A DNA stretch of 64,000 bases from Gonium pectorale (lineage: Eukaryota > Chlorophyta > Chlorophyceae > Chlamydomonadales > Volvocaceae), in NCBI GenBank assembly GCA_001584585.1, contig LSYV01000008.1:1834429-1898428 (forward strand), written 5' to 3'. The position numbers were made by a program, and so were the translations under genes. The notes beneath the pieces are model-generated. The model did no database searches. It had not been told where the DNA came from and worked only from the letters and a program-made list of their open reading frames with translations. This document shows positions 11,901 through 40,700 of this stretch, piece by piece (within the stretch, counting starts at the first letter, position 1; each line of letters starts with the position of its first letter).

Positions 11901-12960
11901 GCTCATTTTGCCCGGACCACACTCCACGCACGCAGGCTCACACCTGCGACAACCTTTTGGAGCTGCCAAATTACTGGGAGAGCCTGCTGGCAGTTCGGGG
12001 CGTGCGGGGCGGGCCGGCGGCGATAGCCCGAGGGACGACGACGGTGACGGACGGGCAGCTGGCGGAGCTCAGGGCGGAGGCGCGGCGCATACTGGACGAC
12101 CGGCTGGAGATTGCGGTCTCCAACTTCCAGGGCTACGGCCTAGACGAACGGTCCGGCCCCGATGACGATGACTATGGGGAAGGACCCGACGGGCGGAAAC
12201 TGTGAGTCGTTCGTGCTCTTGACGCGCTGTGCCTTTATGCTGGGACGGGCTGATCAGTGTGCAACGAGGGTCTGCTTAAGACTGGATGCAAAGGGCCGCG
12301 CTCGGGTTCGTGTTCGGGTAGTGGAGGCGCCCCTGCCTGCTTGCCTGGTAATCTGACTCCCGCGTCTTTATGCAAGCATGCCCCCCCCTTCTTCCTGGCG
12401 CCCTGCGCCTTTGCCCTTGCTGGCGTAGGAACCCTCCCGAGCTCTCCCCGGAGCCCGAAGTGCCGCTGACGCCCGCGGCCCTGACGGCGGACAGCCTCGC
12501 CTCGCTGGCGCGTTTCTCAGCCGCCAGCAGCAGCATGCTCCATTCCTCCCACCCACTTGCATTTAGTGCAGCTGTCGCAGCCGCCGCCGCGGCCAGCCAG
12601 CCCCTGGCGCAGCGCGGCAATCGCATGCCGCCCCTGCCCGTTGCACACGACGCCGCGACGGCGGCGACAGCGGGCGTTTCGGTGTGCGTGCCGGTGGCGC
12701 CGCACAGTCCCGTCCCCAGCCGCCAGCCGCTCCTCTCGGCCTCCGGAGCACCCCAGCGGCTGGCCCTGGGCAGTGAGTCGCTGCCGCCGCCCCCGGTGCC
12801 CCATGTACTGACGGATGCTGAGCGGCAGGCCAACATCCTTGCGCGCTTTGAGGTGGACCTGAACGACCGAAGTCGCCTCAGCGGCGGGGGCGCCCCGTAC
12901 CAGGCGCCGGCGGTGAAGCGCGAGTCAACGAGCGAGGGCAGCAACGATGCATTCAAGTGA
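8980..12960 (+). CDS. HECT-type E3 ubiquitin ligase with acylated N-terminus
   Basis: Exons 8980-9663, 9730-9937, 10182-10333, 10627-11646, 11936-12201 and 12429-12960 encode 953 aa. HECT ligases take ubiquitin from E2 onto a cysteine and pass it to substrate. HECT landmarks in order: VRRSSAFWDAF (about residue 305), FVDEFTE, GPRKEFFEL, a Ser-rich insert, FAGWLLGQSLLNR, YVRHSVAQILRDGV, a WEVLANW...FVTGTSRLPLPG block, then HTCDNLLELPNYW with catalytic Cys692. The N-terminus MGCSCSK fits N-myristoylation at Gly2 and palmitoylation at Cys3/Cys5, suggesting membrane or flagellar location. Residues 1-300 have no domain I recognise. Oddly, about 260 residues follow the catalytic Cys, whereas HECT proteins normally end 30-40 residues after it. 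The 66-nt intron 9664-9729 is in frame and stop-free, so retention would add 22 residues. Confidence 0.86.
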
Positions 12961-15190
12961 TTTATCGGGGTGGGCGCTTCGCGGCGCAACGCTGCACCAG
13001 CACAGAGGCCAGTACTTGACACCGGGATCAGTACTTGCGTGTGCCCGTCCCACGCCGGGCCTATCTTCACACCGCACCGTCCAGTGTTTGCGTCCCCCGT
13101 TCATTGCGTTGGGCGTACATGCGTTCATTGGCTGGGGCGCTTGATCTTGGACCTTCATCCATGTCCCTAGCGGGCTTGTTCCCTCTACGTCCGCGGTGGG
13201 CGATGACGTATTTGCAGCCTCCTTGGTTATCTAGTGCCTTGTGCTACCTCTGTTGCGAGCCGTACGCGGCTGTGAATTTATTATCATAGACATTGGACCT
13301 CCTTCTTGGTGTGTTGTGTTGTTGCGGGCTATGAATTATACCCCGGCAATTATGTTGTATGCCCGATGGCACAGTATGGGCCGCCTGAGGACGCAGCGTG
13401 AACGAACGGCTTGCAGGCTTGGTCCACGCGTGCAGGTGGGGCACTCACAGACACCAGTGTTGTGCAGGTCCGTGTATGGCTGTGGGGCTGATGGAAGAAA
13501 GATTATAAATGGCCACCGTACCAGGGCCAGGCTGGACCAGGGGGCGGTCGTACCTCGCGCTGGTTACAAGTATAGCGGCTTTCGCGGTTGGATGAGCGGA
13601 GCCATTGTAGATAATTGGTTCTGCACGGAACCCAAGCTGCCGGTACGACAAGAGGTTGCATCGGCGGCATTGCATTAATGCCTATCTACATGTACGGGTC
13701 CACACGGATTCAGGTGCTTTTGTACGCGCCCAGGCTACGCCTGCGAGCGGGGTTATAGCATGCGAATATATGGCATGACCTTCTGTAACAACGGTAATGT
13801 TCTTGCCGTGTAAGGGAAACCTGGATGGCGGGAACACCTGTAACACTGGCACTACTCGTCGCGTTAGAGGTACTTGTGCGCGATACAATTATCTTGCAGA
13901 ACATCACATTCACGGCAGCAACTGGGGCCAGATCGATCGCTTGCCACTTTCACACAACAAATACGAACTCCGGACAGCAAACGCCGCCTGGGCACGTGGC
14001 ACGGAGGGACCTGCATCTCAGGTGGACGCACTGCAAGCATTGCCGCGGAGGGCAGCTCGACCCTGCCTGCACATAGCCAACGGCATTCGATGCGTAGGTA
14101 ACCCGACCCTGTCCGCCCACAACCACCCTCAACAACGCCCTGCGACACACACAATGACGCAGACATAGACGCACCGTTGGGCACTGCCCTGTGTACACCA
14201 ATAGCCACAGCAACAGCGTTCGATTGCGCAGTTCCGCCAAGACCCTGAACTAAGCGACGCAGCACCGCGACGAGGCCCACGCAACAGCAGTGCAATACCT
14301 GCTAAGACTGCTGTGATGAGGTCCTCCGAATAACAAGGCTTCCACCATGCAGCAGCACAATACGGTAGCACGCCCAGTCCGGCACCTCATACTTCCAGCC
14401 GCCAGAATGCAGTATAACTAACAGCTCACCTCACCTCCCGACATGCCTCCCACCAAATCCATGACGAGAATACATGAATGGGTTCGGCTCGAGCATCCAC
14501 CCTGCCTGCCTGCAGAGACTCGAATGCTCAACCAACAGAAAACAAACGGGCCCAGGGCGTGACTCGCCATAGTTTCCGATACAAAATGATGTGCATCGTG
14601 CCGCATAAATATCCGGGGCTCCCGCACCTCCCAACGGTTACCACGCGCCGTGCCCGGGGCACGCTAGGTATCGTAGGAAAATGCTGCAACAGGGGTGCCC
14701 ATCCGAAACGTATCGCCCCCGACGAATTTCTCAAAAGCTCCCATGATGCCAAGTGTAAGCGACCCATATCGCAAACCATAGGCAGGGGACCCGACCCCTA
14801 CTGCCCCATTATTACCCACACATTCCCAAAGACCCTGTGGTGTGTAAGACCACGACCCGCAAACAGTTGCGGCTCCCACACACGATGCTCGACCAAACCC
14901 GAACACGCCCGAAACAGCTTCACCATGACCAAGGCACCACGACCAAGGATGCAACGAAACCAGCTTAAAGAGCATTGAAAGAACGAGAGACGCAAAAGGC
15001 CCAGCTCCGATGCATCGGACACGAAGTTCCTCACCCCAGCTATACGGCGCTTGGCGCTTTGTACGCTGGGCGCGGCGCGAACGCCGCCCGGCCGCACCCG
15101 CGGGTGCACATCAAGCACGTAACGCTGCGCGCGCCGTACCCACCCGCCTCCTCAGGACCCGGCACAGCCGCAACATGTTCCAGGGGACGA
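12961..15190. other. Convergent intergenic region
   Basis: This lies between the 3' ends of the HECT gene and the minus-strand cyclase gene. Three TGTAA motifs cluster at 13784, 13809 and 13839 on the plus strand. A TTACA (TGTAA on the minus strand) at about 13562 is the nearest candidate signal for the cyclase. Open frames here lack coding composition and motifs. Confidence 0.5.
13784..13843 (+). terminator. Cluster of three TGTAA motifs, HECT gene
   Basis: TGTAA occurs at 13784-13788, 13809-13813 and 13839-13843, about 820-880 nt after the HECT stop codon. The clustering supports these as poly(A) signals for that gene. Confidence 0.45.
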
Positions 15191-18100
15191 TCACATCACG
15201 TAATCGTACGACAGGTTCCGGACGGACGATCCCTGGTCCGCAGCGTACACACCGCCCTCCCGCACCACCATCGCGGGCATGCCTGGCAGGAGCGCCTCCG
15301 AAGGTATGCAGCCAGTTGTTCCGCCAGTCGCCCCGCCTGCTTCACTGGTGTTGATCGAAGTCACGTTGGTTACTGTCAGGCCCTCGAATGGCAGGGGCTC
15401 GGGCGGCCCCATGAGCTTCATGACCCGGACGCTAGTCGGCGGGTCTCCGCTGGCCGCCCGAGTCACGCCCTGGCCACCGGGGCCCTGGCCCGGGCCCTGC
15501 TCTAACGCCGCTGCCTGTCGGGCCCGCGCCGCCGGGCTCGCAGTTGACATGGCCGCTGCCAGCACCTGCGCCGCCGTGGGCCCTCGCACGTGCGGGAGGT
15601 TCCCCGCCTGCGCCAGGGTTTGTACGACGCTGTTCGTGTCGACCGCGGTATGATGCCCGGTAGCCATGGGGGACGACGGTCCAGTTGACGGAAGTCGAAG
15701 GTAGCCCGAATTGGTGGCCAAGCAAGGCAGCTCAGTGCCTGATAGAGCGCGCCACGGAGCCGCGGCGGCCGGAGCCGGAGGCCCAGGTATGGGTATGTTG
15801 GGCCCGTTGGCGTGGGATGAGGCCGGGGAGACCTTGGCGGCGATGGCTGCTGCTGCCGCCGCCGCGGCCGCGGCCGCCGCCTTGACCAGTGAGCGATTGC
15901 TTGGTTGCCGAGAACCGCCGCTGCCACCACGCCACCAGGCGCCACCACCGCTGCCGCCACCGCTGACTCCAGCTCCCGGCGGGTCGTGGGCACCGTGACC
16001 GATATGAACGCCACTTGAGATGGCGCTGGACAGAGGCACGTGCCCGGACGGGGCGGCGCTGGAGGGGGCCAGATCGTACACGCTGTCACTCCCTGCCTGA
16101 TCCGGCAGCGGCACCGCGCCCGTGCCCCCGTGGATATAGGTCCGCATGATGCCCTTGCCCTTGGCCTGCGTTGGGGTGCAGCAAAACGCCTGCTTACGAC
16201 AGCTGACGACACCGCAATGCCCGCACGGTGCTCTTGCCAATAAGTGAAGTGCATTGGCGATAAGCCTGAAATGACGCGGTATCGAACGTCTTTGAATCGT
16301 GCAGCGGCGGGCCTGAGCTGCTCCTTTTCGCAGCTTGTGTCATCATTGGGGGTCGGGGGTGCCCTCGTGCGCAGGCCTCATTATTGACATTAAGCCAAGT
16401 ATCTGGGACGCAGATTAATCTAAGCTGTGCGCCGAGGCAGGCGCCATGGGTTGCGCAGCAGCCGCCCCCGATCCCCCGCCTACGCACCATGACGCCACCA
16501 GTGGGCACCCAGGGCTCCTCGGGCACCAGGTCCCGCACGGACGTGGAGACGTGGATGGCGCCGGGCGGGCAGGTCGATTCGCAGCGGCTGGCTGTGTTGA
16601 TGGTGTCGCCGAAAAGGCAGAAGCGCGGCATGCGGGTTCCCACCACGCCGCTCATTGCGGGGCCGCTGTGGATGCCCACTCGGACCTGCAGCGGCTGGCC
16701 GTTGGGCATCCGCATGTCCTTCACCACCGAGAGCACCGCCTGTGGGAGCGGGGGCGGGATGATCGCGTCGAGGACTGAAGTCGAGCGAAGAGGTCCGGTC
16801 GCAGTGCAGGTGGCCGCGGGCGCCAACGCTGCCGGTTGGGGGCCGGCATTGGCCCGCGAAAGGCTTCAAGATGGGAGCAGGACGGAAGCGTGACATGGCT
16901 CGACATACAAGTGTATGACGTTCTCATGGAAGATCCAACACTTCCCCAAGAGCGCAGATACGGTCCGCACACGGCGTCATGAAGACAGGCCTCGGCGGCA
17001 CCCAAGCGGCAAGTGCAGCCAGGGGGCACAGGGGCGACGCGCAATCGCCCACGCACCTTGGCAAAGTTGACCACCTTGCGCGCGTGCTCGGTATCCACCT
17101 CGCCAGGCTCCAGCAGCGCAGCCACACCGTCCGCGCCGCGGCGCACCAGACCACCAGCCACCATATAACAGTCGCCTACATGGGGCACGCGAGGTGGAAC
17201 GCTTAGGGGCCATGGGGAGCTCAAATGGTCTGGAAGTCCGCAAGAGCGCCAGCCATCGGTGCGCAGACGTTGAGTAGCGCCAGGCGTTGGCAGGGCAGCG
17301 TAAGGAGTTGACAGGACAGCGGACGACAGGAACACGTCGGCGGTCTTTGGACTCACCAATGGTCTCCACTATATCAGCCAGCGACAAGGGAGACGACATG
17401 AAGAGCCAGGCACGGGCCACGAAGAAGCACAAGCGGGGGTGAAAGTTTAAATCCAGATGGAACACAATGGATTAAGTCCCATACTAGGCGCGCAAGGATG
17501 TGGAGAGCTGGAACCTTAACCAATGCCCATGCCTCAATGCAGGTCCCTAACTCAAAAAAGGAGGCAACCTCCTTGGCCCAGCTGTGCCCAGCTGCCCTCC
17601 TGCTGCGCTTTTATGGGCCCTAGCACGGCTGAGATTGCTGAACAAGAGCCCCATGAATATGATACGCGCAAGACAAACGCAGGATTCATAAGCCCTACAC
17701 CCCAATGCTACAACACTAGAATCCAATGCCCCAGATGATCGCCGCAATACCCACCCTTGTACACGTCGTGCACGTAAAGCAGCGAGTCGAACTGCGTATA
17801 GAGGCAGTTGAGAAACGACATGACGACAGCCGGCTCCACGGACGAACACATGGCCTGAGAGAGGGGCATGAAGTAGCCCGAGGCCAACAAGCGGAAGCCA
17901 TCAGGGTGTGAGGGTCACGGCAGTGGGGCAAGACGCACGTGGGCGTGCCACACTGTAAGCTTTAGCACAGGCCGAACCGGAGCCGCGAGCCCCACTGCTA
18001 CCAGACAAGTCACCGTTGTATGCCCCTCTCCAGCATCGTTGGTGACGCAGGCTGGGTGCAGCCCAGTGCGGATCCCAATCGAATCAGCCACGCAAATGCG

Positions 18101-21100
18101 CACGGTCGCGACGCCTTACCGTGAATCCTTTCACATCGCAGAAGAGGATAGTGATCTGCGTGTACCATTGATGCCGGATGGGCAGGCGCAGCGGCGATGC
18201 GTGAGCGGCAACATAAGGCAACGGGTCGGGTAACAGACCAGGTAACGTGTCAATGAGTGGCAAGCCATTCCGAGAAGTACTGGGTGCAGCTCTTCCAAGT
18301 TTTACGCAACCAAAAGTAGCATGCCGCGGCAACATATGGCGTCACGCCACTTCATGCGGGGCATCAGCAGGCACGGTTCAGGGCAACGTGAGGCCCCCAC
18401 ATGGCGGCGCCCGTACCTGCTCGTGGTGGTGCGCCAGCTGGCTGCAGTCGTGGCTCTTGAGCAGGTCGAACTGGGACTTGCGCCGTTGCCGCCGGCCCTG
18501 GTTCCCCATGGATGCGCACACGCCGCTGATATTCTGCATGGCGATGTACTCCAGCACGTGGCGAGGGAAGATCTGCGCGCCAGGACAGGTGTTGAGGAGC
18601 GGTATGCACTAAAACACCGGGTTAAGAGAGAATTGAGGACGGCCAGGTGGGAGACCCGGGTGCTGTCAATTCCTCAACAGGATGGATATGTTATGGGCCA
18701 AGCCCAGTTGGGTAAACTGGTGCCTGCCTGCTGCAATCAACCCGTCCAGCGTCCAGCGACCTGCGTCCGCCGTGGGGCAGTGTAGGCTTCCACAAGGGCG
18801 CCACTCCTCAACAACGGACACTTCACCACACTTGCGCATGTCACGCAGCTGCGCTTCACGTCTGCACGCGGCGGGTATGGGCCACCCTCTCTGAGACTAC
18901 CGTACCGCGCCATGCTAACCGGCCACCATGACCGGACCCAGCGAAAGCCCCAAAGCCTTGGACCTGCCTGCTCCAAAAGGCGGTGCTCCACCTCCATCAG
19001 CTCCGTCAGCTGCATCTCCGTCTCCACCTTCTCGCTCACGTCGTTCTGCGGCACGGAGACAGTGTGATTGACACATCGTCAGGGACACTCACTGCCGATA
19101 GAGATACTGCACAGCCCCCCACACAGCATGGCGAGCGTGACACACGCACGGACGCCCCCGGCCACCAGCAAGCAGCTCACACTAGGTGTCAAGAGATGCC
19201 AACCCAGTACTGGCTCGCATAACATCCAGAGCCAGGGTAGCAGCCGAGACCGGCGCAACAGCCAGGTAGGTAGAGCTGCTAGGAAAGTACAGGAATACAA
19301 CGCTCGACGGAAGGAGCCACCCCTCCGTTCTGCTTTGCACACACCTGCACCAGTGCCACGACCCGCGTCCCGGTGACCGGGTCCGTGAAGCTCGTCGCCG
19401 CCACCTCGTGCCATGCCATGCCCACACGGCGCGCCATGTCAACCGGAGTCATCTCTCGCGGCGACACCATGCGCACACCAGGGTTGTGGTCGGCGTCCTC
19501 CTGACCCCGCACCCGGCCCAGCTGCGCCGGCAGCAGTGGGGGCATATCATACGTGCTGTTGTCTCTGGTGCCCGCTGGCGAGCAGCATCCCGCTCCAGAG
19601 CCATCTTCATGCGTGCCTGGCTCTGAGACCGCGGCGGCCGCCACATCGTTGGCCGCCCCTCCTGCTGCAGGTTCCGTCGCCTGGGTGATGGGGCTCACCG
19701 GCGCTGCAGTGCGCAACGCTGCCTCGGAGGACGGCCCTGACTGCGCGAGCGACGTCGGAGACCGTGAGGCCGACTCCCGCCCCATGCGGGCCATGGCCGA
19801 GTGCAGCACTGGGCGCTCCCGCTGCGACAGCGGGAAGGAGCCCATGCCTGCGCCGCCGACGTTGCTGCCCTCCGAGGAGCCCGCGCTGGCGTGACGCCTC
19901 GGCGGCGTGCGAGTCCCCGTCACACCGCCGCCCTCAGTGACGGCGGCCTGCTGTAACTCGAGCATGCGCTTTGAGGCGCGCATGAAGCTGAAGATCCGCG
20001 GCACCGCCAGGCGCGGCTCTGCCGCCGAGAGCTGCAGGGAGTTGGACCGGCAGCCCGCCAAGCCCTCCGACACCACGCTGGTCCGGCCGCGTAGCCTGCC
20101 CGAGGCGGAACACACCCCGCCGGTGGCGGAGCTGGCGTGGCCGCCAGTCTCTTCCTCCTCACCAGAAGAACCGGCGCCGTTTACCGCTCGCTGCGAGTGC
20201 ACGCGCCCCAGGACGTTGAGCGTTGAGGTGGGCAGCGCAGTCATGAGATAGGTCCGGGTGGAGCTGCGGCTGAGCGGCCGCTTCAGCGCGTTGAGCTGCC
20301 GCCGCACGGCGCCGCGCTGATGCACGCCGGGGCTGCCGCCAGCACCGCGCGGCAAGCCGCTGGTGCTGTGATACAGCCCGCCCACACCGCGGGAGGCGCC
20401 CTCTGCGCCGTCGACCGCGCCGCTGACGTCGTCTGGCGCCGAGGAGCGCGCGCGGTGGAGAGGCACGCTGTGGTGGGGGCGGGTGGACGTGTCGTCGGGG
20501 CCCGCGTCTGCCTCACTGGGAGTCGTATGCAGGGTTACGGCGTCTGCAGTAATAAGCGGCGAGCGCAGCGCCTGGGCTCCGTTAGTGGCCGCCGCCTCAA
20601 CCTTCTTGAGGTTTCTACCAACTGGCAGTGGCTCCGGCTCTACTTCTGCAAAAGGCGTGCAGAGGCGGTGGCTGCGAGCCGGCAGAGGAGTCGGCTGGCT
20701 CGTGCCCACTTGACTGCCGCCACCATCACCGCCGCCACCATGGCTAGGACCAACACCACCGCCGCTTGTGGCCGTCCCTGGCGACGCACTCCTAATTGCT
20801 GTCTCCTTCTGCCGCAGCGCAGCCGGTTGGAACGCGACGGGGTCGACCGGAACGGGGACAGGCATAGGCTGCGGTTGCGGGGAACGGAGAGCCTCTGGCA
20901 ACTGCAGCGCTGCCGAAGACGTCTGCGCCGCCAGCCCATGTGCCGGAGCCGCCGCCGGCAATATCGTTGAGGCGTCCACGACACCAGCGAACTCCCCTTG
21001 CTCCTGCCTGAGCTCAAGCACCCCTGAACCCCTGAGACTGACACCAGCACCGGCCTGTTCCGCACGGCTGCCAGTCAAGTCATTAGGGGCTGCACTCTCC

Positions 21101-24100
21101 ACGCCCGGAGCAAGCGCGTCGTCAACCTGGGTGCTGGCTCGCCGCACTGTCCCGTCAGGACCTGACATGTATGACAGGCCGCTCTGCATACGCCTGGGGG
21201 CACGGCGCGGCCCACTGGACGCCCCAGTTCCACCGCCGATGCCACTGCTCCCCGGCAGGCGCCCACTGCGCAGGCGCTCCACGAACGCGAGGACTGCTGA
21301 CGTGGGCTTGGAGCTGCCAGAGCGAGTCATGGTCTGACTCTGGCCGAGCCCCGGGCGAGCCGGCAGGCTGACGGAGGCATCTTCAGGTGTCGACCCCATC
21401 GATGACCTTGCGTTCGCGTGCAGGCCGCGCGTGCTCGTGGCCGAGCGTTCAAACAACGAGGGAGCGGTAGCTGTCGAGAAGCTGTGGAAGTGCACGTCCC
21501 CGCCGCCTAGCCCGGGGCGCAGCGGCGGCCTCTGCTGGAGGAGCGCAGGCGGGATCCCCAGGGTGCCGCACGATGGCAGCGCCGCCGTCCTCTGCCCCCA
21601 CGCCACGTCGGCTGTCTCCGGCGGCGCAAGCAAATGCGGCTGATACGCAGCCGCTGTTGGCGGGGCCCGGGTCATGGGCGGCGCCGGCTCTGGTGCAGGG
21701 CCCACCTCAGGCCCCCGCGCATCTGACACTGCGGCAGGACCCGAGGGGGCCCGGCCGCCAACCACTGAATGGAGCCGGTGTTGATGGGGCGAGGGCCGCG
21801 ACAGGGACGAGACGTGAGTGAAGCTGCTGGAGACAGGCCCAATCAGGCCCCGCAGGGAGTAGCTCCGTGGGGGCGGCCTCCGCAGCCTGCTGGAGCTCTG
21901 GGGCAGTCGCGAGATCCGATCTGGGTCATCCTCGTTGTCTGAGACGGCAGTCAACGTTGAAGCCGCAAACTTTGGGGTCAGAGCCGCTGCGGTTGCGGCC
22001 AGGGGCGAGGCCTGTTGCGGATGCCACGGGGGCCTGCCGCTGCGTGCTCCTGCGCTCGCCGCGCGCACCGGCGTGTCGTGATGGCGCTCAAGGACAGGGT
22101 TGCTTTGCACCACGTTGCTGGGGGCGCTAACGATAGGACCCGGCAAGTTGACATCGGCAGTGGTGTCGGAGACATCCCCGCGAGGGGCCGGCTGCTGTGC
22201 GTGCTGCGGCGAGGCCTGCCGGGGTGAAGGCGGCACGGGCGGGGCCTCGGGTGCGGAGGCCGTCGCCGGCGTGCGCGGCGTGTACGCCCTTGCCGCCGGG
22301 GGCTGCGCTCCTCTCGGAGCATTGCTGCCACACGGAGCCTCAGCGCCAGCGCTCTCGCGCGTGCTGCTGGCCCTGGCTGCCGCGTGAGTGCTGCCAAGGC
22401 CCTGCTGGTAGTCGCAGCTCATGCCCGCAGGGCTGGCGCCGCCGCCAGCGGTCATGCCGGCGGTGCTGCTGCGCGCACCACAGCGCTGGGCCGCACGGAT
22501 GCACGGCCGCATTACCCGCGGGACTTGCACGATGCCTCGCCACATGTTGCCGCAGATTACCTCCTCCAGCATCTCGTCCAGAAGGTCGGGACACAAACAG
22601 AACAGTACCGACAAGACGTCAACTTCCGAGGCTTCAAGCATGCTGGCCGCGCCGAAGCGTCCCGCCGCTGAGCCGACTCCTGCTCCTCCAGCTGCGGCCG
22701 CGGCGCCGGCCTTGCCCGCGACCTCCGCCTCGGCCTTTGCCATAAAAGCAACCGACTCACGGGCCTCCGCCGGAACGCCAGAGGAGGACATGGGGCCGTG
22801 GGACGCGGCCGCTGGATCGGCCGGCTCGCCAGTGACCTCCCCGAGGTATTCGACGCTTCCCTGCCGTTGAGAGGGTGATCACACGCGGAGGCAAATACAC
22901 AATATGGCAATTCAACGCGAGCCAAGGTCTGAGGCGGCTTAACGAGTGTAAGGCTCCACGCTGCTGCGGCGAAGTGGGCAATCTCAGACAGCGACATTAA
23001 GTGTTGCGCACCTGGTTTTGCTGGAGAACACGACCCTGGCAATCGAACAGTGTGATTGCGTAGGGCACAGACGCCAGGAGAAGGTGGTGCCGCTGCCAGG
23101 TCTGAATGACGTAGAGCAGCTCAGCTCCTGCCAGCGGAGCAAGCTCGGGGCCGCTCGCCGCTGCGCCGTCCGCTGCGCCCCCGCTGCTGAGAGGCCTAGT
23201 GCTGGCACCAGCCGCAGCGACGCCAGCAGTGTCAGCCGCGGCATCAACACCAGCACAGCCGCCCGCCGCCGGTTCCATCCCGCTCGCGACGGCAGGCGCT
23301 CTGTCCCCTGCAGCATGCCCATCAGCTCCAGCGTCCTGCGGGCCCAGAGCACCCGCCATGCCAAAGGACAACGACGGTACCGACGCCGACCGCATGGCGG
23401 CATCGCTGCCGGTGTGGATGACAGGCGGATGGCCGGCGGTGGACGCTATGAGGTGGCCGCCCTCCAGCGTCAGCGCCGCGGACGATGTGGTGCCGTCGTT
23501 GTCCAGGAAGTGCAGCCGCAGCTGCGCGTTGCTTAGAGGGCCTCGCGGCGCGGGCGCCGGTGCTGACATCATGGCATAGCTCAGCGCCGAGAAGGGCGTC
23601 GCGGCCGGCAACGGCGGCAGAGCCGACATTGACACCGTCCGCGACGCCGCTGGCCACTCCAGCACGATTGCGGGCTGCCAAGCGTGCCCCAGCGTCGCGG
23701 AGCTCTCCCTGCTCCCTGCAGCTCCCGTTTCCGCCTGCGGTACCGCCGCCGGCGGCTGGTAGGCGCACACGTGCACCCTCACCTGCCCAGTTTGAACCGC
23801 CGCCTGCAGCGCGGCCGCTCCCAAAAAGCCAACCTGCCGGGTCCCATTGTTGGCGCCGAGGGACGACGCTCCGCCCGCTGCGGCTGCGGCCACGGCCGCG
23901 GGGTCCCGGCCGCCCAACAAGGCGCTGTAGGTGGAGAGGTGCACGGTGTGCGCCATCGGCGGCGCGTGCCCGGGCCTGGTCGCCGCTTGCCGCAGCATGT
24001 CCTTGGCCAACAGCAACAGGCATGGGTCTTCCTCAAAGAGCTCGCGAAGCACGCACAGCACAGCTGACGTCTCGCCGTCGTGGCCGGTGCCACCTGCGGC

Positions 24101-26488
24101 CGCCGCTCCAAAGTCTCCCAGGCGCTCCCCGTTGCCCGTGGTGCCGCCAGCCGCAGCGACCATAGTGGCCATGAGTGCACCTGCAGCACTGTTGTGCCAG
24201 GCATGGACCAGCCCCACCTCTCCACCTGCGGCACCCTGCAGGGCCGCCGCCAGTTCCGCGTGCGCGAGCTTGCTGTCCCGATCCATGTCCGGGTGGTGGT
24301 GGTGGTGGTGGTGCAGCTGGGCAGCATACTTAGCGCCGAGTCGCGACTGGCGGCCTCTGCGCTTCGCTGTGTGGCGTGGTATCTCAAGATGCATGGTGGC
24401 TACAACAGGATTGCCCGGCGCTCCGCCACTGGCGCGGCTGGCGCGGTCCAGCGTATCACCCGTGCCGCCGCCGCTTTTGTCCCTGCAAGAGGCCGCCGCA
24501 TGCCCTCCGCCGCTGTTCGCTCGCATGCCTTCCGGGGACACAAGCTCCGCCGAGCCCATGGCCTCGTCGTCCTCCTTATCCTCCTGTGCCCCGTCGGCCG
24601 TGGGCCGGATTGCAAGTATGACCAGCGGCGCAGCGAGCCCGGCTGCGCGTTCGCAGGCTTGACGATTGAAGAGCAGGGCAGGGTACGTGGCTTGCACGGC
24701 ACCGCCAACCCCGTGATGCGACGTTAAAGCCGTGGGCAGAGGCGGCGGAATCGGCCCAGGGGAAGAGCGCGCGCTCTCCCAATCAATCGAGGGCCGACCA
24801 GGCACGGTGCTGCTCGAAATCACGTGCGAGGGCGGGCCGGGCGGGGAGGCTACAGCCGAGATGCCCGAATGATGGGACGCCAGCAACGCCAGAGGCGGCT
24901 GCTGCGCAGCGCTGGTCACAGGGACCTGCGAGTTGGAGAGCATCCTCTGCGCCGCGGTCGGCCCGCCCATCGAGGGTGGCCGAAAGACGTTCTGCAGCAG
25001 CCATGGCTCTGCAGCGCCCAGTGAAGCTGCCGGCCCGCCCATAGGTGCCCCCGCCCCACCGCGCAGGAAGGAATGACCAAGTGCCAGCTGCAGCGGGGCT
25101 TTGCTGAAGTCCACATCCATCAGCGATGCGCGCCGGCTAGCCACGCCCGAGTTGTTGAAAGCGTTCAGACGGCTAACGCTCCGTGCAAACGTCATGCTGC
25201 GATGCGAAAGCGGGGGTAGCGAAGATGTAAAACGGGTCGTAACGCGTGACGCCGGCAGCTGGGGATTCTGAGCAATGCAGCATACATAGGAGCGGGAAGG
25301 CACACACGTCAGTGCCATGAACGCCTTCTGGTGCAACGGGGACCTAAGTTGCCAACGAGAACGCGAGGGAATGGTACAGATTAACACCAAGGGCATCCGT
25401 CAGCCAGCTACACGAGGCCATGGGCCCATGGCTCGCCACCCTCCCCTCAGGTGCGCATACACATGCTTCCAGCCGCAGTTAACAAAGCACAGATCACCTG
25501 GTGCTCCCTCCACTGCCAGCACCCACGCTGCCTGAGGTAAAGCCGGTAAAGCCTGTCGCTGAAGCACCGAGGCGCGATGGGTACTGCGCGCCCCCCATGG
25601 GGTCATGCAGCGGCTTAACCTCCTGCACAGCGCCAGGTGCGGATGGCAGGTGGTGAGAGAAGGGGACGGGAACAGGTGTTGTAACGAAACATGAAGTGGC
25701 AGGCGCGTCTCAGGGTGGGATGGTGGCCATGTGCCATGTCGCCCCATACGGCCACGGTGCCGACGATGGAAGAAGCACAACCGGGGAGGTGCTTACAAAA
25801 GCTTCCGCCCGTGTGATTCGCAGAGCGTGCTACTCTGTGTGAAGCAGCCCTGCCCGCCCAGGTGCTGCCCCTACGCATGCTGTTATCACACCTGAAATAG
25901 CAGTCCCGTGCTAGTGTGGTGCGGTCCACCGTCGGGCCTCGCCTCCGTGTTGACCCAGCGCTGTCCTACTGATCCCCCGAAAGATGATGACTGCACGCAA
26001 CACGCAACATGGTTAGGATGACCCGCGGCAGCCCCGCGCCAGATCATTGTCGTCCATACGGTCGCTGCAACACCGCCAAGGGCCCTATGACTCTCCGTCG
26101 TGTGACACTGCGTCATGACTCCCCCTCCTCCTCCTGGTCAGCGAAACCCCGGGCCCCGTCCCACCTGCATCTTCGCCCGTATGGAGGAAGCCCTGCTGCT
26201 GGGCTGCCGCTCCAGTAGCGTCCGCGCCAATCTGCTGGTCGAGGGCTGGCGGACGGCCTCCATATCATCTTCAGCTCCACGCAGGGGACTATCCGCCAGC
26301 CTGCTGTTCCTGGCAGCGTCCCAATTCGCACCGCCACCATCGGGACCCGAGGCAGGCCTCCTACTGCCGCTGCCCGGCCGCCCTGTACCAAACGAATCGC
26401 GTGAAGTCCGCCTTGGCGAGGTTTTATCGTCATCTGCTCTGGGCCGGAGACACAGGCCAGGGAGGCACGAACAGAGCACGTCCTTCAT
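15191..26488 (-). CDS. PAS-linked guanylate cyclase (class III, CYG-type)
   Basis: Exons in gene order: 26488-26165, 25267-23012, 22860-19345, 19045-18968, 18572-18417, 18155-18120, 17854-17755, 17368-17357, 17175-17057, 16739-16488, 16165-15191; 2,607 aa. It makes cGMP from GTP. A PAS domain begins near residue 838 ([10 protein letters not shown]) and reaches WRGIVQVP (967). About 1,030 low-complexity residues follow, then the PAS closing strands at 2010 ([15 protein letters not shown]) and a linker helix ending [15 protein letters not shown]. In the catalytic domain (about 2111-2290) metal-binding aspartates are D2117 (FCDVKGFT) and D2161. Glu2157 (VETIGD) and Cys2240 (RFCLFGD) form the GTP-specific pair. 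Asn2247 and Arg2251 are the catalytic pair. All key residues are present, so it should be active. The tail from 2284 is Ala/Gly rich. The N-terminus ([13 protein letters not shown]) has cysteines that may be acylated. No membrane span was seen. Intron 4 is GC-AG. Confidence 0.92.
17357..17368 (-). other. 12-nt microexon of the guanylate cyclase
   Basis: The exon TGGAGACCATTG is flanked on the minus strand by ATAG upstream and GTGAGT downstream. It joins a phase-1 exon end (17755) to a phase-2 exon start (17175) and restores the invariant cyclase motif K-VETIG-DCYM. Without it the motif is missing four residues, so the assignment is strong. Confidence 0.9.
18581..18967 (-). other. GC-AG intron in the cyclase gene (5' part)
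   Basis: The intron runs from 18967 down to 18573. The exon ends GAG-CAG at 18968 and the next bases are GCAGGT. The only phase-compatible continuation is the acceptor GCGCAG before ATC at 18572, giving [15 protein letters not shown], the conserved linker of algal cyclases. No GT donor in the right phase gives this junction. Confidence 0.75.
24291..24315 (-). repeat. CAC run encoding seven His
   Basis: In exon 2 of the cyclase, a trinucleotide repeat (GGT on the plus strand) encodes seven consecutive histidines followed by PDMDRD. Low-complexity homopolymer runs are common in this protein. Confidence 0.8.
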
Positions 26489-26764
26489 TAGGATACCAGA
26501 TAAGCCTATGAATGCTCATGCCGCGGCCTGGCTGGCATGGTGTCCAGAACAAAGTTCTTTGGCGTCTTGATCAAAGCGCCCCCATCTTTACCAGCGGTAT
26601 GCGAACAAGTGTTATAATATTAGATCTTTAGGTTCCATTAACTACCAAAAGAGGCTACAAAGAAGTACGGACGGTTTCCAACCGGCCCTTGAATACAACC
26701 CGAGAGCTAAATTCACGTTCACGGATGTGTTCCAAGCACACGAAGCGGGAAGGCTAAAGGCATA
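26489..26764. promoter_or_regulatory. Divergent promoter region
   Basis: The start codons of the minus-strand cyclase (26488) and the plus-strand unidentified gene (26765) are separated by only 276 bp. Both leaders and promoters must lie here. The middle is relatively AT-rich (about 26605-26640, with TTATAATATTAG), unlike the flanking exons. Confidence 0.6.
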
Positions 26765-29700
26765 ATGAAACGCTCTGCGGCTGATGCCCCGGCAGAAGTA
26801 AGGGTCGGTTGCGGCGTAGCAATGGCTGATCATGGCGTTTTATATCGTTTCTTCGTTTGGTCCGTGCAGGAGGCGCCAACCCGGAAGCGCACATTCTGCC
26901 CACCTGTGGTTGGCCGGACCGCAAAGGTGACGGTGACATGGAGTGCGTGGCACGCATGATGGTTTCATTTGGCTGTTTGGGCTTGGGTTTCGTGCCCCGG
27001 CAGCATGTAGCACCCTCGTAGCCCCCACCGCCAGGGTCCAACACCTTGTTCCTGCCTGCTCAACATCGAACGTAAATCGTGCAGCTTCTACAACACCCTC
27101 TCACGCCCTCCTTGCTCGTTGCTGCACCTGCCTGCAGGTTCCTGTGGCGGCGTGCGCGGTAGCGGCTGCGGCCGGGGCAACCGCTTCTGCACATAGTGGG
27201 CCCTCCGCAAAGGTTCCTGCGGCCTCCAAGCTACTCTTCCAACCACCAGGCGTTGCTGGTTCAACGATGGCATGTCGCGCACCAGAGCGGCCCTTCGGCG
27301 CTAACAGGCTTCTGGGGGTGGGCCTGCGCCGTCCGGTAGCTGATGGCCTCGGGACTGCAGCGGCCAAGGCGGGGTTGCTCACCAGCGCAGCCGCAGAGAA
27401 GGCCCCCGGGGGCACCACGCTGGCCGCCAAGTCGGCTTCGGCCGTGGCGAAGGCGGCACTTCGACGTCCTCCAGCCGCAGATAGCCCAATACCGCAAGTT
27501 AAGGCAAGCATTGTAGCTGCTAAATCGTCGTGTAAAGCCGGGAGCGGAAGGATGCCGGGCAAGGGCGTCGTCATAGCACCGCGCCAGGGTGCCGCGAAGA
27601 AGGGCGTCAGCGGCTCAGCACCCCCTTTTGTGCCCTATGCCGCCGACTTCGCTGACGGTTCCGCGCGCAACCCAGATCAGGATCATCGCCAGGAGTGTCA
27701 AGCAGCGCGCTTTTCCGCTCGCCCGCTCGGCTTGGGCCGTGCCGGTGACGTGGCCGTGCCCTCGACAGTAGCCAAGGCGCATGACTCAACCCACATGACC
27801 GCTGCCCAAGAAATCCCGCCTGCGCCAGCCGAAGTCACCGGAGAAGCCACCGCGGCACAGCAGCCTTCGGGCCACGCCATCATCTCCAGCCCCGTCCCCA
27901 GCCCAATCCATGCCGAGGGTGAAGTCGAGCATGGAGGCCTCGCGCCCGATTTGCCCGCGCCGCTTAACATGTCCATCGTGCTAGAGCAGGTGCCGTTGCC
28001 GTCGTGGGCCGGGGATCCTCCGGAGCTGGGGCCAACGACAACGAAGACCCGCGCTGCCGGCGGGGCTGATGGGGAGGCATCATCGCGGGGGCAGGGAGCC
28101 CATGCAGCTGGTGCTAAGAAACAGAAGACTGAGGGCGACTTCGTCGTGCAGGTACGGCAGTGGATGATCATCGATACCGCTTGGTGTTTAGTGTGTAGGA
28201 CCGCTGGATGGTGGAATATTCTGGTCGCGCTCTTTGTGCATGAAAGCCACATACCCTTCAGGATTCTTTGCGGTGTACCCTGCGGGCGTGTCAATGCAAC
28301 TCGCACACGGAGCAGCCGCTGTACATCGGCATATAACCGATCTGTAAACTTACTGCTGGGTGCACGCATGTGTCTGCAGAGGCTGCCAACGGTGGTCATG
28401 CCCCCTAACAGCCAACGACTCCCGGTCTCACAACCCTTTATGCAGCTCCTGGGTATGTTTTGGGTGAACTCGGGAGGGGCGGGTACTTGCCTGTCGATGA
28501 GCTACACTTGAAACTGTCATGTCTTAATGCCGTCTCTGACCGAATTCTACTCACCTACCTAGCTGGTTTGCATACCCAGTACTGGCACTGCCTTGTCCAA
28601 CTATGTTTCATGAACGCCAAGTTGTCTGTGCCACAGAAGCCGCAGACTGATTAGCATCCAATGTTCCTTTGCTCTTCTGGTCAACGGACAGCTCCCAGCG
28701 GTTGCGTGTCCTCAAGTAGCCGTCCTGTGATGCTTGGGCAGCATGGACAGGACTACCAGAAGCCAATGCGTAGCTCGCCATTGATTAATGTTCACTACCT
28801 GTCCCTCGTTTCGCCCCCGGCACCCAGGCCCCCTGCAGCTCCCCCACCTCGTCATGGCGTTGCCGTCGGCGGAGTCCGGTCAGCTCCGCGTCGCGGACGC
28901 AGCCGCGGCGCGCGCGATGCAGGCCTCCCTGCGGCCGGTCGCGGTGCTGAGCCCCTCCTGCGAGGCTTTGCAGCAGGATGGCGCAGGCACTGCAGCTGCC
29001 GTCGGTGGCTTGCGGTCGCTAGAACGGCATGGCGCAACGGGCAGCCACCCTGGCGGCGGCAGTGGTGGTGGCTTCCAGCAGTTCCGCCTGGTCCTCCACC
29101 CGAGCGGCCTGCTGGGCGCCATGCGGCTGGCCCGGCGGAATGTGCTATCCCACTTCGTGCAGCCCAGCAAGAATGCGGGCATGCCCGTGACCGGGCACCT
29201 GGTCCGCCCGTCACCCGAACGCGCCAGGTGTGGCTTCATGCTGACCTGTTTAACGTATATTTTTTTCCAATGAGCGCGTTAAGGACCATGCGCTTGGTTT
29301 GGGAAGGACGGGAGCAGACTCTCCGAGCGTGGGCAGCGGGGTCTCTCTGGCCGGTTTCGACTCGCACGCGGGACCCGGTTCGTCGGCTCCAAGCAGCACG
29401 TACGCTTCGCTAGTCCGCCTTGTCCTGGCCTGGCACTGACAATCATCGGCCTTCGCATAAATGACCGCTTACTTGCTGACTGCCCTGTCGCTTGCCGAAT
29501 GTACCTGCGCAGCGAGGAAGCCGCTCCGGCCGTGTCGGGGGCTGTTTCGGGCGGTGGTGCCGATGATCTGGTAACCGCTCTGGGCTCTGCAAAAGACGAC
29601 ATAATAGGTGGAGCGGGACCCGCAGACGATACGCGCGGCAACCCGGGCAGCGCGTCTAAGGCAACAGGGGGTGAGCAAGGGCATGTTTGCGGCGTGCTGC

Positions 29701-29973
29701 CATGCGAATCATGCTGCAGGCTAAATGAGGTACCTAGAACAGAAAGCGTTTGTTGCCCCTTCGGAGCCCACACATCGAAGTCCAGACAGCTGCGCCACCT
29801 GCCGGGTGAACATCGCGACCGCTGTTTGTGCATCTTCCTCAGGGCAAGTTGGAGAGGAGCAGCACGTCATCCTCGACACCCCCACACTCCATGAGGGAGC
29901 ACATGCCGACTTCTGCGGTGACGTCCTTCTGTGGAGCGGGCTGTCTGCAGACTTTCTGGCGTCACTGGCATGA
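26765..29973 (+). CDS. Unidentified Ala/Pro-rich protein
   Basis: Exons 26765-26797, 26870-26926, 27138-28151, 28839-29227, 29513-29670 and 29843-29973 join with matching phases to 593 aa. No family is recognised. The N-terminus is basic (MKRSAADAPAE, TRKRTFCPP). The large third exon is rich in Ala, Pro, Gly and Lys and ends with a KKQK cluster, suggesting a nuclear or intrinsically disordered protein. Exon 4 carries a less repetitive stretch (HPSGLLGAMRLARRNVLSHF) that could be helical and conserved. The C-terminus is acidic (GEEQHVILDTPTL, then LLWSGLSADFLASLA). It is transcribed divergently from the cyclase. Support comes from frame continuity across five introns and coding-like composition, not homology, so exon ends may need revision. 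Confidence 0.62.
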
Positions 29974-31773
29974 CTCTCTAATGACGTGTCTGGGCTGAGT
30001 TGAAATGATATGCTGATCTGGCATGCCACGGCCAAGACGGCTGTGCTAGTACAGCTGTGCTAGTACGGACGTGTGCGTGCTGTGCTGGTACGGCGTCTCC
30101 GTGACGTGCGACTGCAAATGTACATTGTGCTCATACAAGACAGAGAGTGTTCGCCTTCAAGAGTCAATAATCGATCTACGTTTGCGCTTCGTATACATCA
30201 GGATGCTCACAGCACAAGATCTCGATTCTCCTTTAATGTGACCATCTCTGGCCACACGGTACCCTAAACACTGCGTTCTGATGTATACTCGTCGGACTGG
30301 TAAGGAATGTCCATAACTACCTCTGGCCCAAGGACCTGCTCTTCGTTCCCGGTGAACACTGGCCTGTTTGTTGTGAGGGTTTGAACTGCCCGTCGGCCCT
30401 GAACCTGGCCGCATGCCGGGTGTTACGTGTTTCACTGATTGTACATGATTCGAGCCCTAGTATCGAGAGGAATGCGGCATTTGCTTGGAATGAGTAAGTT
30501 ACTTACAAGTCCTGATGTGGCATGGTTACAGCGTGGCCGGTTGGCAACTGTTAGTGCATTGCACATTTTGTAGACTAATCAGGCGTAGATGAAAATGTGG
30601 AGGGCGGTTCCCAGCGCTTGAACGGGTGCTTACACTGACTTCACTGCTGCAGCATGCCTAGCATGAGTGACGTCTGCGACGGGTTTCGAGTATCTGAAGG
30701 GGTCAGGCTCTGGCTCTATGTGCAACTGGGCCCAGCGCTTACAGCAACAACACTATCTCTGTTGCGGCGCAAGCATTCTGCCATGGAACCGGCCATTCTA
30801 ATGCGTGCCCTTGCATAATGCCAGGATTATCGGCATTGCTAACGTGTACATTTTGCCGCGGCTGGGCGCGCTTCATTCGATCCGATCTGGGAGCGTCCAG
30901 TGTGATAGCGCTGGTTTGAACGTGTTTTGAACATATATTCGGTGCGTGGGGTACACATGCGTTGCTGTGCCGCATGTGATGCGATGTGGCATGTTAGGGT
31001 AGTCGGCTTTGTGCAGCAATGCGCATTTCCTGGAATAAGGTGCCGGCAAGAAGTTTGATCGCGTGCATAGGTCGTGCCCTGTCAGAGCGTGTTCAAAGGG
31101 TTGCGCGGTCCATGGTGGGCTGCATGGAGTCTTGCGGCCGTAGGTGTGTCACCTCGTGCTTCTGCCGTCTCCAGGGCAGCTGCCCATGCTTTACTAGACC
31201 GTTATATTCCGGACTTCGGGATACTTACGCCAATGACCCCCGTGTGCATTTGCAAACACTATTCACGCTGACTTTGTACGGCCTTTCTGCAGCGTAGTTA
31301 TGTGGGGCTAATTTGCGGGAGAGCTTAGGCGAGCATAGGGTGGGCATGCCATCAGTCAGCCACCCGGCACCTGCACCACATGGGAAACTGGATCAACCAC
31401 TGGGAGAACTACTGAGCCTCCTGTGCCATCCATCTCGGCTGGCAAGTAGTTTTTCCCCATCGGGCGCGAAACATCGCGGAAGGGGATTGGACCCCATCGC
31501 ACGGAGGATGCCTACACATCTTTCATTAAACCATTGTTTCCAGCCTCTACGACAGCCGAGCCACAAAAGGCCCCCGAAAACGGCCAAACCTCTGCTCCGG
31601 AACCCACCGGTGAATCACGATACAAAATGCTGGCCGCCTCCCAATTATAGTGGGCTTATGCCCTGTTTTACAAGTGCAGGCTCTCAAGTCTTCACAAGAC
31701 CTCCCAACGACCAGGACCAGACACCGCTTCGCGGCTGGAGCTTTCGGAGTGCGATTAAGCTGCAGCGGCCGCC
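29974..31773. other. Intergenic region, no gene seen
   Basis: 1.8 kb of lower-GC sequence with only short random frames and no TGTAA recognised. A 13-14-bp tandem repeat (GCTGTGCTAGTAC, two copies) lies at 30040-30066. The right end must contain the UTP10 promoter. Confidence 0.5.
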
Positions 31774-37700: not shown

Positions 37701-40700
37701 ACAGACGGCGCCATCGCCGGACCCGTCGGCCCGGTCAAAGAAGAAGACCAAGAAGGCGGACGGTGACGCTACTGCCGCGGCACAAGCGGCAGCGGCGACG
37801 CTGCCGCCACTGGACCCGCTATCCCTCCGCGATGCCGTGGTCGCTCTGGAGCTCCTGCAGTGGCGCGGCGGCATTGCCAAGCCCGGCTTGCTGGCTGCGG
37901 CGCTGCAGTCGCTGCTTCGGCGGCAGCTGCCGGTGGTTGGAAGCATCGCCACCGTTGCATCTGCAGAGGGCGAGGGCGATGAGGAAGCTGACGCGGCAGC
38001 GCCATTGGCGGCCGCCGACAGCACTGATGATGGAGCCCAGTCGTCTCTCTCCGGCTATGCTGTGACGCTTGCGCTGACGGCCCTGGCGTCGCTCGCGGAG
38101 CAGGCGGGTGCTGACGGAGACGACGAGGAGCAGCATGTGATGCTGGCTTCGATGGACATCGGGCTGGCGGTCCGTGCCGCTCGCGAGGCGCCCGACGCGG
38201 CGGTTCGCAACGGGGCGCTGCGGCTGTTGTCGGGCCTGGCCTCTCGCATGCCCGAGGCGGCGCTGGCGCACGTGCTGCAGGTGGGCTGTGCGGGTTGGGG
38301 TCTGGCCGCCTGGGCTTGGTGTGTGGTTGCTTGCCGCTGCCGTGCGCACTTCACGAGCGGATGGACTGTCGTTGAGCCCTGAATGGCTCGGACATGAGAG
38401 TCGGCACGAAGGTGCTGGGGCGCCTGGGTTCATGGGCCGGACCAATGATTAAACAGATTTTGACATTGCTTTCACAGTTTCTGAAGCTCAGTGCTGATTA
38501 TTTCTTCATATGAGGTCCGAAGGCCAGCTCGTTATACCACTCGATGCCCGTGCCATGAGCCCCCATCCGTAACCCGAAGCCATCCACCTTCGATTCATCA
38601 ACCCTTCACCCCAACTTTACTCGTACCCGCCTCAGGTTCTGGCCGTCATTAACGCGTCCGCGGCTCTCCAGGACGACGAGCACAGTCGCGCTGTGGGCGC
38701 TGCAGCCTTGGCGGCGGTGGTGCCAGCCTGGGTGGCGGCAGGCCAGAAGCCGGCGGCGCTGTGGGATCAAGTGGCGGCTGCACTGCCCTCGCTGCCGCCC
38801 CACCGGCGACTGGACCTGCTGCTGGCGCTGATGCGAGCCCTGCCAGTAAGTTAGAAAAGGTCTGCAGTTGTGGTCCGATGGCTTGTGTGCCTGCACTCCT
38901 GCCGTGAGCTGTTATGGACGCTTGGGCGCATTCATGACGCACGCAAGAGCTGCAGTTGTGGTCCGATAGCTTGTGTGCCTGCACTCCTGCCGTGAGCTGT
39001 TATGGACGCTTGGGCGCATTCATGACGCACGCACGAGCACGCATTCCAGCGGCCGTATGATGACTTCTTAGATGACGAATCCGAGCGGCACTTATGCAGC
39101 ACCTCGACGTTCTGTCGACGCTGTCGCCGACCGAGACGACAATCGAGGCATTTGTCTGACGGCTTGCTGAATGCGCTTATGCGCTGTCGCTTCCTCACGC
39201 TTGCATGGTCCTGATGAAGATCATATTTTTGGAAATATAGCGAATCCGCATGAATGAGATAGTTACAATCTGCGGTTTCCCTTGTTTGTTCTGGCCCAAC
39301 GAAAGCGCGGCGAGGCCTAACCCTTCTGCGGTCATGTTCCCTGCTACACAGGAGGAGGGTCTGGCGGACGGGTTACTGGTCCTCATGCAGCATGCGGCGG
39401 ACCCCAAGGCTCAGGCTCAGGCGCCTCCAACGCCGGCAGTGGCCGCAGCCCCAGGGGCGAAGACGCCCAAGTCTGCAGCCAAGATGGCGCGCGTTGGCAC
39501 GGCTGCAGAGGCCCAGACGGACGCGGGCGCGGAGCAAGTGGCGATGGCCGGGCCGCCACCCTCAGAGTGGCTGCCGGAGCTCGCTTCGCAGCTGGCGTTG
39601 CAGGTCAGTCCGAGAGGGAGGGCGGCGCGCATTTCTTTGGTGCATGCACTGGTTGCACTGTGTTTCCACAGAACCTTATGTGGCGGGCAAGCGAGGCCGG
39701 TGACGACAAAACTATCTTATTTGCACGTCAGTCTTAGACACCCGTGCTGACTCTTACTACGGTTGCTGAGGCCTCGCCTGCCCGCCCGCCTGCCAGCCCG
39801 CGAGCACAATCCCGGCATCTTGCTTGCCTTGCTCCGACGTCTGCCATCCATCACGCTGTGGATCGTAACCCCTTGACCTGTGCTGGCCATTGCGCTATAT
39901 CAAATTTTGCAACCTTGCCTCGAAACTTCCAGGTCGGGCTTTCGGTGCGCCTGGCCTGCTGCGCCCGCGTCATGGAGCTGGCTCTGGCTGCCAGCCGTCA
40001 GCAGCCGCACACGCCCCTCCCGCGCCTGGTCGTGGCCTTCGTCACTGCACAGCTCAAGGTGTGTGCGTTGCCGACGTGCTAGGCTCAACTGCCTTCTTGC
40101 AGTGCCATGCACGTCGTTTTGGGCACGTTGCAACATGCCAATCTCCGTTGCCTTCGGAGTGTTAGTCGCCGAAGTGCTACAGTTCACGGCTGGCAAGGCA
40201 GTTGCTGTATGGAACTGGCCGATGATATTATCCATGTTACACACACCGATGTGGCAACCCTACGGGGCGGCTACAGCTAATGACGAAAAACATTAGCGGA
40301 TTTCTCTGAGGCCAAGTTTCCATTCCGCTTGCATACTCGACGCCGTTGGCGCATTGACACACTTTTCACCTGCCGAATCCCTCCCTCACGGGCAGCCCTT
40401 CCGTCCGATGCCTCCAAATTTTTTGGCTGACCGCTAACAACTGCCCGCCGTCCGTCATCTTGTGCAGCTCAAGGTGGCCGTTGCCGCTGCGGGTGCTTCG
40501 CTGCGCCGTCCGGAGGCCGACCCCGTCCTAGAGGCCGCCTGCCGCCGCCTCATGGAGGCAGCCCTCGCGCAGATGCAGCTTCTCCAGCCGGACGCTGTTG
40601 CCGCTGACCGGGGCAGCGATGCCGCATCACCCAGCGGCGCCGCCGGGCGCCTCAACCGCGCCGTCCTGGCCGCCAGCCGCGGCCTGTACGCCCTCTTTGC

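Follow-up and report, generated by a model that had tools for sequence, protein, structure and literature searches.

A 12-nt exon carries the predicted guanine-recognition glutamate of a class III guanylate cyclase gene in Gonium pectorale

Introduction

Can an exon of only 12 nt hold the residue by which a guanylate cyclase chooses its substrate, and does its inclusion serve as a switch or is it an inherited by-product of intron placement? The question is raised by a gene on the minus strand of a 64,000-nt stretch of Gonium pectorale contig LSYV01000008.1, referred to here as the window. A sequence-only reading of the window had placed the Glu that selects GTP in such a microexon and had suggested that its skipping, which would keep the frame, could act as an on/off control. 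Here the gene, its orthologs in other volvocine algae and its paralogs in the same genome were compared at this motif.

Results

Structure of the gene and of the microexon

The gene was modelled with ten exons on the minus strand from 25195 to 15191, encoding 2475 residues with no internal stop, the 5′ end being taken as modelled (Table 1). Positions 17368–17357 read TGGAGACCATTG on this strand, a 12-nt exon with AG before it (tgatatag) and GTGAGT after it. Exon 6 ends with GAC GTG TAC AAG G followed by gtgggt, exon 8 begins with GC GAC TGT TAT ATG preceded by ccatgtag, and splicing of the two with the microexon in between restores the VETIGD motif of class III cyclases. The borders, the frame and the motif proposed for 17357..17368 were thereby confirmed. 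The exon falls within the size definition applied (an internal coding exon of at most 15 nt with canonical splice sites). All introns of the model are in phase 0 save the two that flank it, both of which are in phase 1. The skipped form would read K G D with the frame kept, in agreement with the earlier claim. The PF00211 score of the domain was 174.7 bits with the four residues and 153.3 bits without them, a gain of 21.4 bits.

Table 1. Exons of the modelled cyclase gene and the two introns flanking its 12-nt exon (intron types as defined in the survey of paralogs)
Feature	Coordinates	Strand	Basis
Exon 1, as modelled	23012..25195	-	Open reading frame; putative 5′ end
Exon 2, long low-complexity region	19345..22860	-	Open reading frame and splice borders
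Exon 3	18968..19045	-	Same sequence in the aligned models of Volvox (two) and Pleodorina
Exon 4	18417..18572	-	Ten-exon model
Exon 5, first metal-binding Asp	18120..18155	-	Aligned with CYG12 Asp482
Exon 6	17755..17854	-	Ten-exon model
Upstream intron, 386 nt, type A1 (AAG G/GT...TAG/TG)	17369..17754	-	TAG acceptor
Microexon (exon 7), TG GAG ACC ATT G, phase 1 on both sides, encodes VETI(G)	17357..17368	-	AG/GT borders
Downstream intron, 181 nt, type B0 (ATT G/GTGAGT...GTAG/GC GAC)	17176..17356	-	
Exon 8, second metal-binding Asp	17057..17175	-	Ten-exon model
Exon 9, second base-reading residue (Cys), ribose Asn, transition-state Arg	16488..16739	-	PF00211 on open frame; 3et6 alignment
Exon 10 and stop, low-complexity tail	15191..16165	-	Ten-exon model

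VETIG occurs once in the 2475-residue model, and a script found no second copy in window positions 12000–30000. Mutually exclusive exons were ruled out over the same range, as neither the gene model nor its introns hold a second VETIG exon. On this sequence evidence, the 12-nt exon is genuine.

The flanking introns were also searched as possible introners or repeats, and this origin was rejected since each matched only itself in the genome, in a search that passes over simple repeats and words of very high frequency. Only short imperfect repeats were seen in 15000–19500, and no RNA family reached the gathering threshold in 15000–26000. Elsewhere in the model, the intron between exons 3 and 4 (18573–18967, minus strand) has an apparent GC donor (GAGCAG/GCAGGT), a nearby GT being one that would break the frame. 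Exon 3 presumably encodes a signalling-helix-like linker. At a distance, on the plus strand, an open frame at 40438–42822 carries a BP28CT (NUC211) domain (113.5 bits); its product is likely a UTP10/HEATR1-type protein of ribosome biogenesis.

The active site and the class of the cyclase

The spliced domain matched PF00211 with 174.7 bits, the curated cut-off being 21.9, which places it among class III cyclases, and it matched PDB entry 3et6, the catalytic domain of CYG12 of Chlamydomonas reinhardtii, with an E value of 1.3e-36. In CYG12, the base is recognized by Glu523 and Cys592, while Asp482 and Asp527 bind the metal; a single loop supplies Asp527 to one active site and Glu523 to the opposite one, as described in the structural report (PMC2576301). 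The Glu of the microexon, Glu2025 in the ten-exon model, aligns with the guanine-reading Glu523, and Cys2108 of exon 9 aligns with Cys592. The identification of this Glu as the base-recognition residue of a class III guanylate cyclase was thus borne out; the number it had been given, 2157, depends on the start codon assumed. The metal pair is present as Asp1985 and Asp2029, aligned with Asp482 and Asp527, and the distance from the first metal Asp to the Glu is 41 residues, alike in the 3et6 chain and in the numbering of the paper. The Glu had been said to sit next to the second metal Asp; that Asp is indeed close, four residues on, and lies outside the microexon, in exon 8. Counting along the 3et6 alignment, the ribose Asn2115, the transition-state Arg2119, the triphosphate Arg2087 and Lys2153 were matched to CYG12 Asn599, Arg603, Arg571 and Lys640. 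The guanine-reading pair is Glu plus Cys, where adenylate cyclases have Lys plus Asp. These alignments support the assignment of the gene to the class III guanylate cyclases, that is, to predicted makers of cGMP.

Orthologs in volvocine algae

The catalytic region, used as a protein query, had 675 matches, led by Volvox africanus and including many volvocine cyclases, and the best 120 were examined. The motif [VIL]ETIG was present in 118 of these best 120, the exceptions being P0004 and P0053. The closest models were Vafri_9957 and VaNZ11_003827 of V. africanus (83% and 82% identity) and PLESTB_001159300 of Pleodorina starrii (83%), the three orthologs being 82–83% identical over 91–98% of the queried region, with the V. 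africanus match extending over 98%. The four genes form one clade with support of 1.0.

The comparison with related algae that had been proposed gave a divided answer. At the protein level, both V. africanus models keep VETI(G); transcriptome data are described as having aided the gene prediction for the VaNZ11 genome (PMC10291315). In P. starrii, the model (P0004, a cluster of two members on two contigs, of which the representative was read) reads HDVYK-GDCYM: precisely VETI is missing, and the flanks are conserved. At least 163 distinct proteins stood among the matches listed, ten of them without [VIL]ETIG: eight had substitutions, the exact four-residue gap was seen in P0004 only, and for P0123, also among the ten, the script showed no junction. 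Since the gap corresponds exactly to VETI, the simplest reading of this protein model is that introns lie at the same two places and that the exon was left out, which suggests that the intron positions of P. starrii are the same as those of the window gene. We favour an annotation that missed a tiny exon as the cause of the gap; it could also be a real skipped transcript, or the gene may have lost 12 bases. In the Pleodorina and V. africanus loci, a conserved microexon between the two junctions would be expected to show the pattern AG-TGGAGACNATHG-GT.

In another species, Tetrabaena socialis, the second cyclase domain of a protein model (P0003) bears an insert of six residues, ASGLGS, placed precisely where the intron lies between Lys and Val, which looks like a misplaced acceptor.

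Introns at the motif among the paralogs

PF00211 gave 105 exon matches in the genome. The survey covered 60 of 70 loci (59 of 69 paralog regions and the window gene), 55 of which gave a readable motif, three of them with odd versions (METIG in L049, LETIG in L054, VETVG in L059); it was not found in L023, L037, L039, L057 and L060. The family is very large, with at least 55 loci bearing a VETIG-type motif in one 129-Mb genome. Two sites were seen for intron A, directly behind the Lys codon (A0, phase 0) and 1 nt further on (A1); intron B lies after ATH G, before GN (B0), or 3 (B3), 6 (B6) or, in L055 alone, 9 bases further on, making six intron positions among the 55 loci. Thirty loci have A0 only, one has A1 only, ten have B only (six B3, two B0, one B6 and one at nine bases), six have neither and eight have both. 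For nine of the 30 A0-only loci the call is based on the acceptor, with no donor matched after the Lys (L027, L034, L038, L049, L054, L056, L058, L059, L065), and for four B-only loci it is based on the donor only (L020, L031, L036 and L055, the last read by eye). The four sites of intron B are exactly 3 nt apart and always follow the first base of a codon (e.g. window 17356, L020, L036, L042, L055), as if the intron had moved codon by codon or had been gained repeatedly.

A microexon is present in eight of the 55 loci, namely in all eight that have both introns. Its length is 12 nt in the window gene; L024 and L025 have one of 16 nt, and five tandem genes have one of 18 nt, the downstream acceptor of this last class having been seen in one of the five (L044 with L066). 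The exons of these seven paralogs hold the same residues as that of the window gene and differ from it in length, their introns being displaced by up to 1 nt (A) and by 3 or 6 nt (B). The 16-nt exon is not a multiple of three and its in-frame skipping is impossible; on account of these two paralogs, the idea that the family keeps such exons to multiples of three was rejected.

The five tandem genes (L042, L043, L044, L067, L068) belong to an array of at least five cyclase genes on contig C8, at 1.966–2.022 Mb, on the contig and strand of the window gene and 115–170 kb from it, each with its 18-nt microexon over VETIGD.

The sizes were also sought as patterns in the whole 128.9-Mb genome. The degenerate pattern AG-TNGARACNATHG-GT had three matches and its backwards control none. 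All three matches lie in cyclase genes: the window microexon, the sole true 12-nt microexon of the three; a part of an 18-nt microexon at C8:2021983; and an exon of the L031 cyclase on C52, where the motif follows directly after TACAA with no intron. The 18-nt pattern gave five matches, all in the C8 array, and the 16-nt pattern seven, with a preceding intron only in the pair on C18 (L024 and L025).

Splice signals and distribution on the paralog tree

The acceptor of the upstream intron of the window gene is TAG, where 34 of the 39 intron-A acceptors read in the family are CAG. Non-CAG acceptors were found in four of the eight microexon genes (the window gene at 17369, L024, L043 and L068) and in one of the 31 others (Fisher p 0.004), a contrast that is a hint and not a test, since the five array genes are related. 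The less usual TAG acceptor would favour partial skipping.

In the tree of paralogs, whose rows are composite and may hold intron read-through, the partner of the window gene is L028 (support 0.96), whose motif is free of introns. Other branches hold the 16-nt pair and L044, the one gene of the 18-nt class with enough sequence, which places microexons on three branches. Among the 48 labelled tips, the presence of the microexon required three changes versus a mean of 3.9 with shuffled labels, indicating that it is not clustered beyond chance. The same holds for intron B (9 changes versus 10.5), while intron A is clustered (9 versus 14.4, the lowest shuffle giving 11). Six rows with fewer than 60 aligned residues (L026, L031, L036, L042, L043 and the unclassified L060) were left out of the tree, and L067 and L068 are likewise not in it. 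The 12-, 16- and 18-nt classes may have been gained separately, or they may be remnants of an ancestral two-intron state followed by shifts and losses.

Discussion

These results suggest that the microexon is an inherited and recurring oddity of this cyclase family. We consider it probable that it is a genuine 12-nt microexon, left as an inherited by-product of introns entering the motif at several positions, and that its inclusion is required for a working guanylate cyclase. As read from the sequence, two putative phase-1 introns lie 12 nt apart within the VETIGD of the catalytic domain. By alignment to the solved enzyme, the Glu of the microexon would recognize the guanine at one of the two active sites of the dimer, and the Asp that follows four residues later would bind the metal at the other. 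Skipping would give an in-frame protein without VETI, which should make no cGMP and could poison the dimer. As one loop of CYG12 serves both active sites, skipping would be expected to damage both, and because it also shifts the metal Asp, the probable outcome would be a loss of activity and not an altered nucleotide preference. Any skipped transcript would then mostly represent a loss by splicing and not a dedicated switch. That the segment is no exon at all, the match being due to chance or the motif being formed by another splice pattern, is hardly conceivable: splicing in this genome is known from the sequence alone, which leaves some room for it, yet all three pattern matches in the 128.9 Mb lie in cyclase genes with none in the control, no other VETIG exists in the gene model or in 12000–30000, the P. 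starrii model marks both junctions, and paralogs have 16- and 18-nt versions. Nor is the gene likely to be a decaying or non-catalytic cyclase that tolerates the loss of VETI. The P. starrii model without the motif would fit this, but the seven other active-site residues named for CYG12 (PMC2576301) are present at the aligned positions, the frame is open through ten exons and the queried region shares 82–83% identity with V. africanus along 98% of its extent, which together make it highly improbable.

A regulated on/off switch between the active cyclase and an in-frame inactive form without VETI, perhaps a dominant-negative one, has more in its favour, and we rate it as unlikely. The 12- and 18-nt classes keep the frame, the upstream acceptor is of the less usual type, and the P. 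starrii model, which is exactly the skipped form, comes from genomes described as annotated by Funannotate with RNA-seq reads (PMC10256686). More exon skipping is also reported for Volvox carteri than for other algae (PMC6142364), and the CYG12 loop, whose Glu523 and Asp527 serve opposite sites (PMC2576301), would suit a dominant-negative subunit. The 16-nt exons speak against a switch: they cannot be skipped in frame, thus in-frame skipping is not a shared purpose of these microexons, and that two of the three size classes are divisible by three is not noteworthy. VETI is present in both V. africanus models, the nearest paralog L028 has no intron there, and plant annotation is reported to miss exons of 15 nt or less commonly (PMC8831610). 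Given the 16-nt relatives and the V. africanus models, constant inclusion of the exon is more likely than a switch. More doubtful still is a wider scheme, in which volvocine algae would switch cGMP signalling by microexons in the catalytic motif (the 12-nt exon or the 18-nt exons of the tandem genes), the skipped subunit being inactive and possibly dominant-negative and the P. starrii protein a real isoform.

With the required, inherited microexon as the preferred explanation, two consequences deserve mention. A 12-nt exon with the substrate-choosing residue is easily lost in annotation, and one public ortholog model thus depicts what should be a dead enzyme. Furthermore, one genome offers a natural experiment, in which the same motif occurs with no, one or two introns, the last giving microexons of 12, 16 or 18 nt; the cost and control of microexon splicing could therefore be compared directly in green algae.

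In the literature searched, no report linking microexons with Chlamydomonas cyclases was found, nor one on micro-exons in Chlamydomonas and Volvox, and when the search was widened to microexons and guanylate cyclases in general, none of the best 15 of 351 matches mentioned a microexon. The 45 microexon clusters of land plants are reported absent from the Chlorophyta examined in that study, V. carteri and C. reinhardtii (PMC11096116).

The closest system of known structure is CYG12, which is like the window gene in domain family and motif, Glu523 and Asp527 aligning with Glu2025 and Asp2029; its PDB entry describes a soluble guanylyl cyclase, and the solved chain is the 190-residue domain only. 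Among known microexons, the nearest parallels are the 9-nt exon of land-plant AP2 genes, encoding VYLG, and the 9-nt exon of invertase genes, which contributes to the beta-fructosidase motif. Both are described as tiny, in phase 1, part of a core motif and often omitted from gene models, like the exon described here (PMC8831610), while the gene families in which they lie differ from that of the cyclase.
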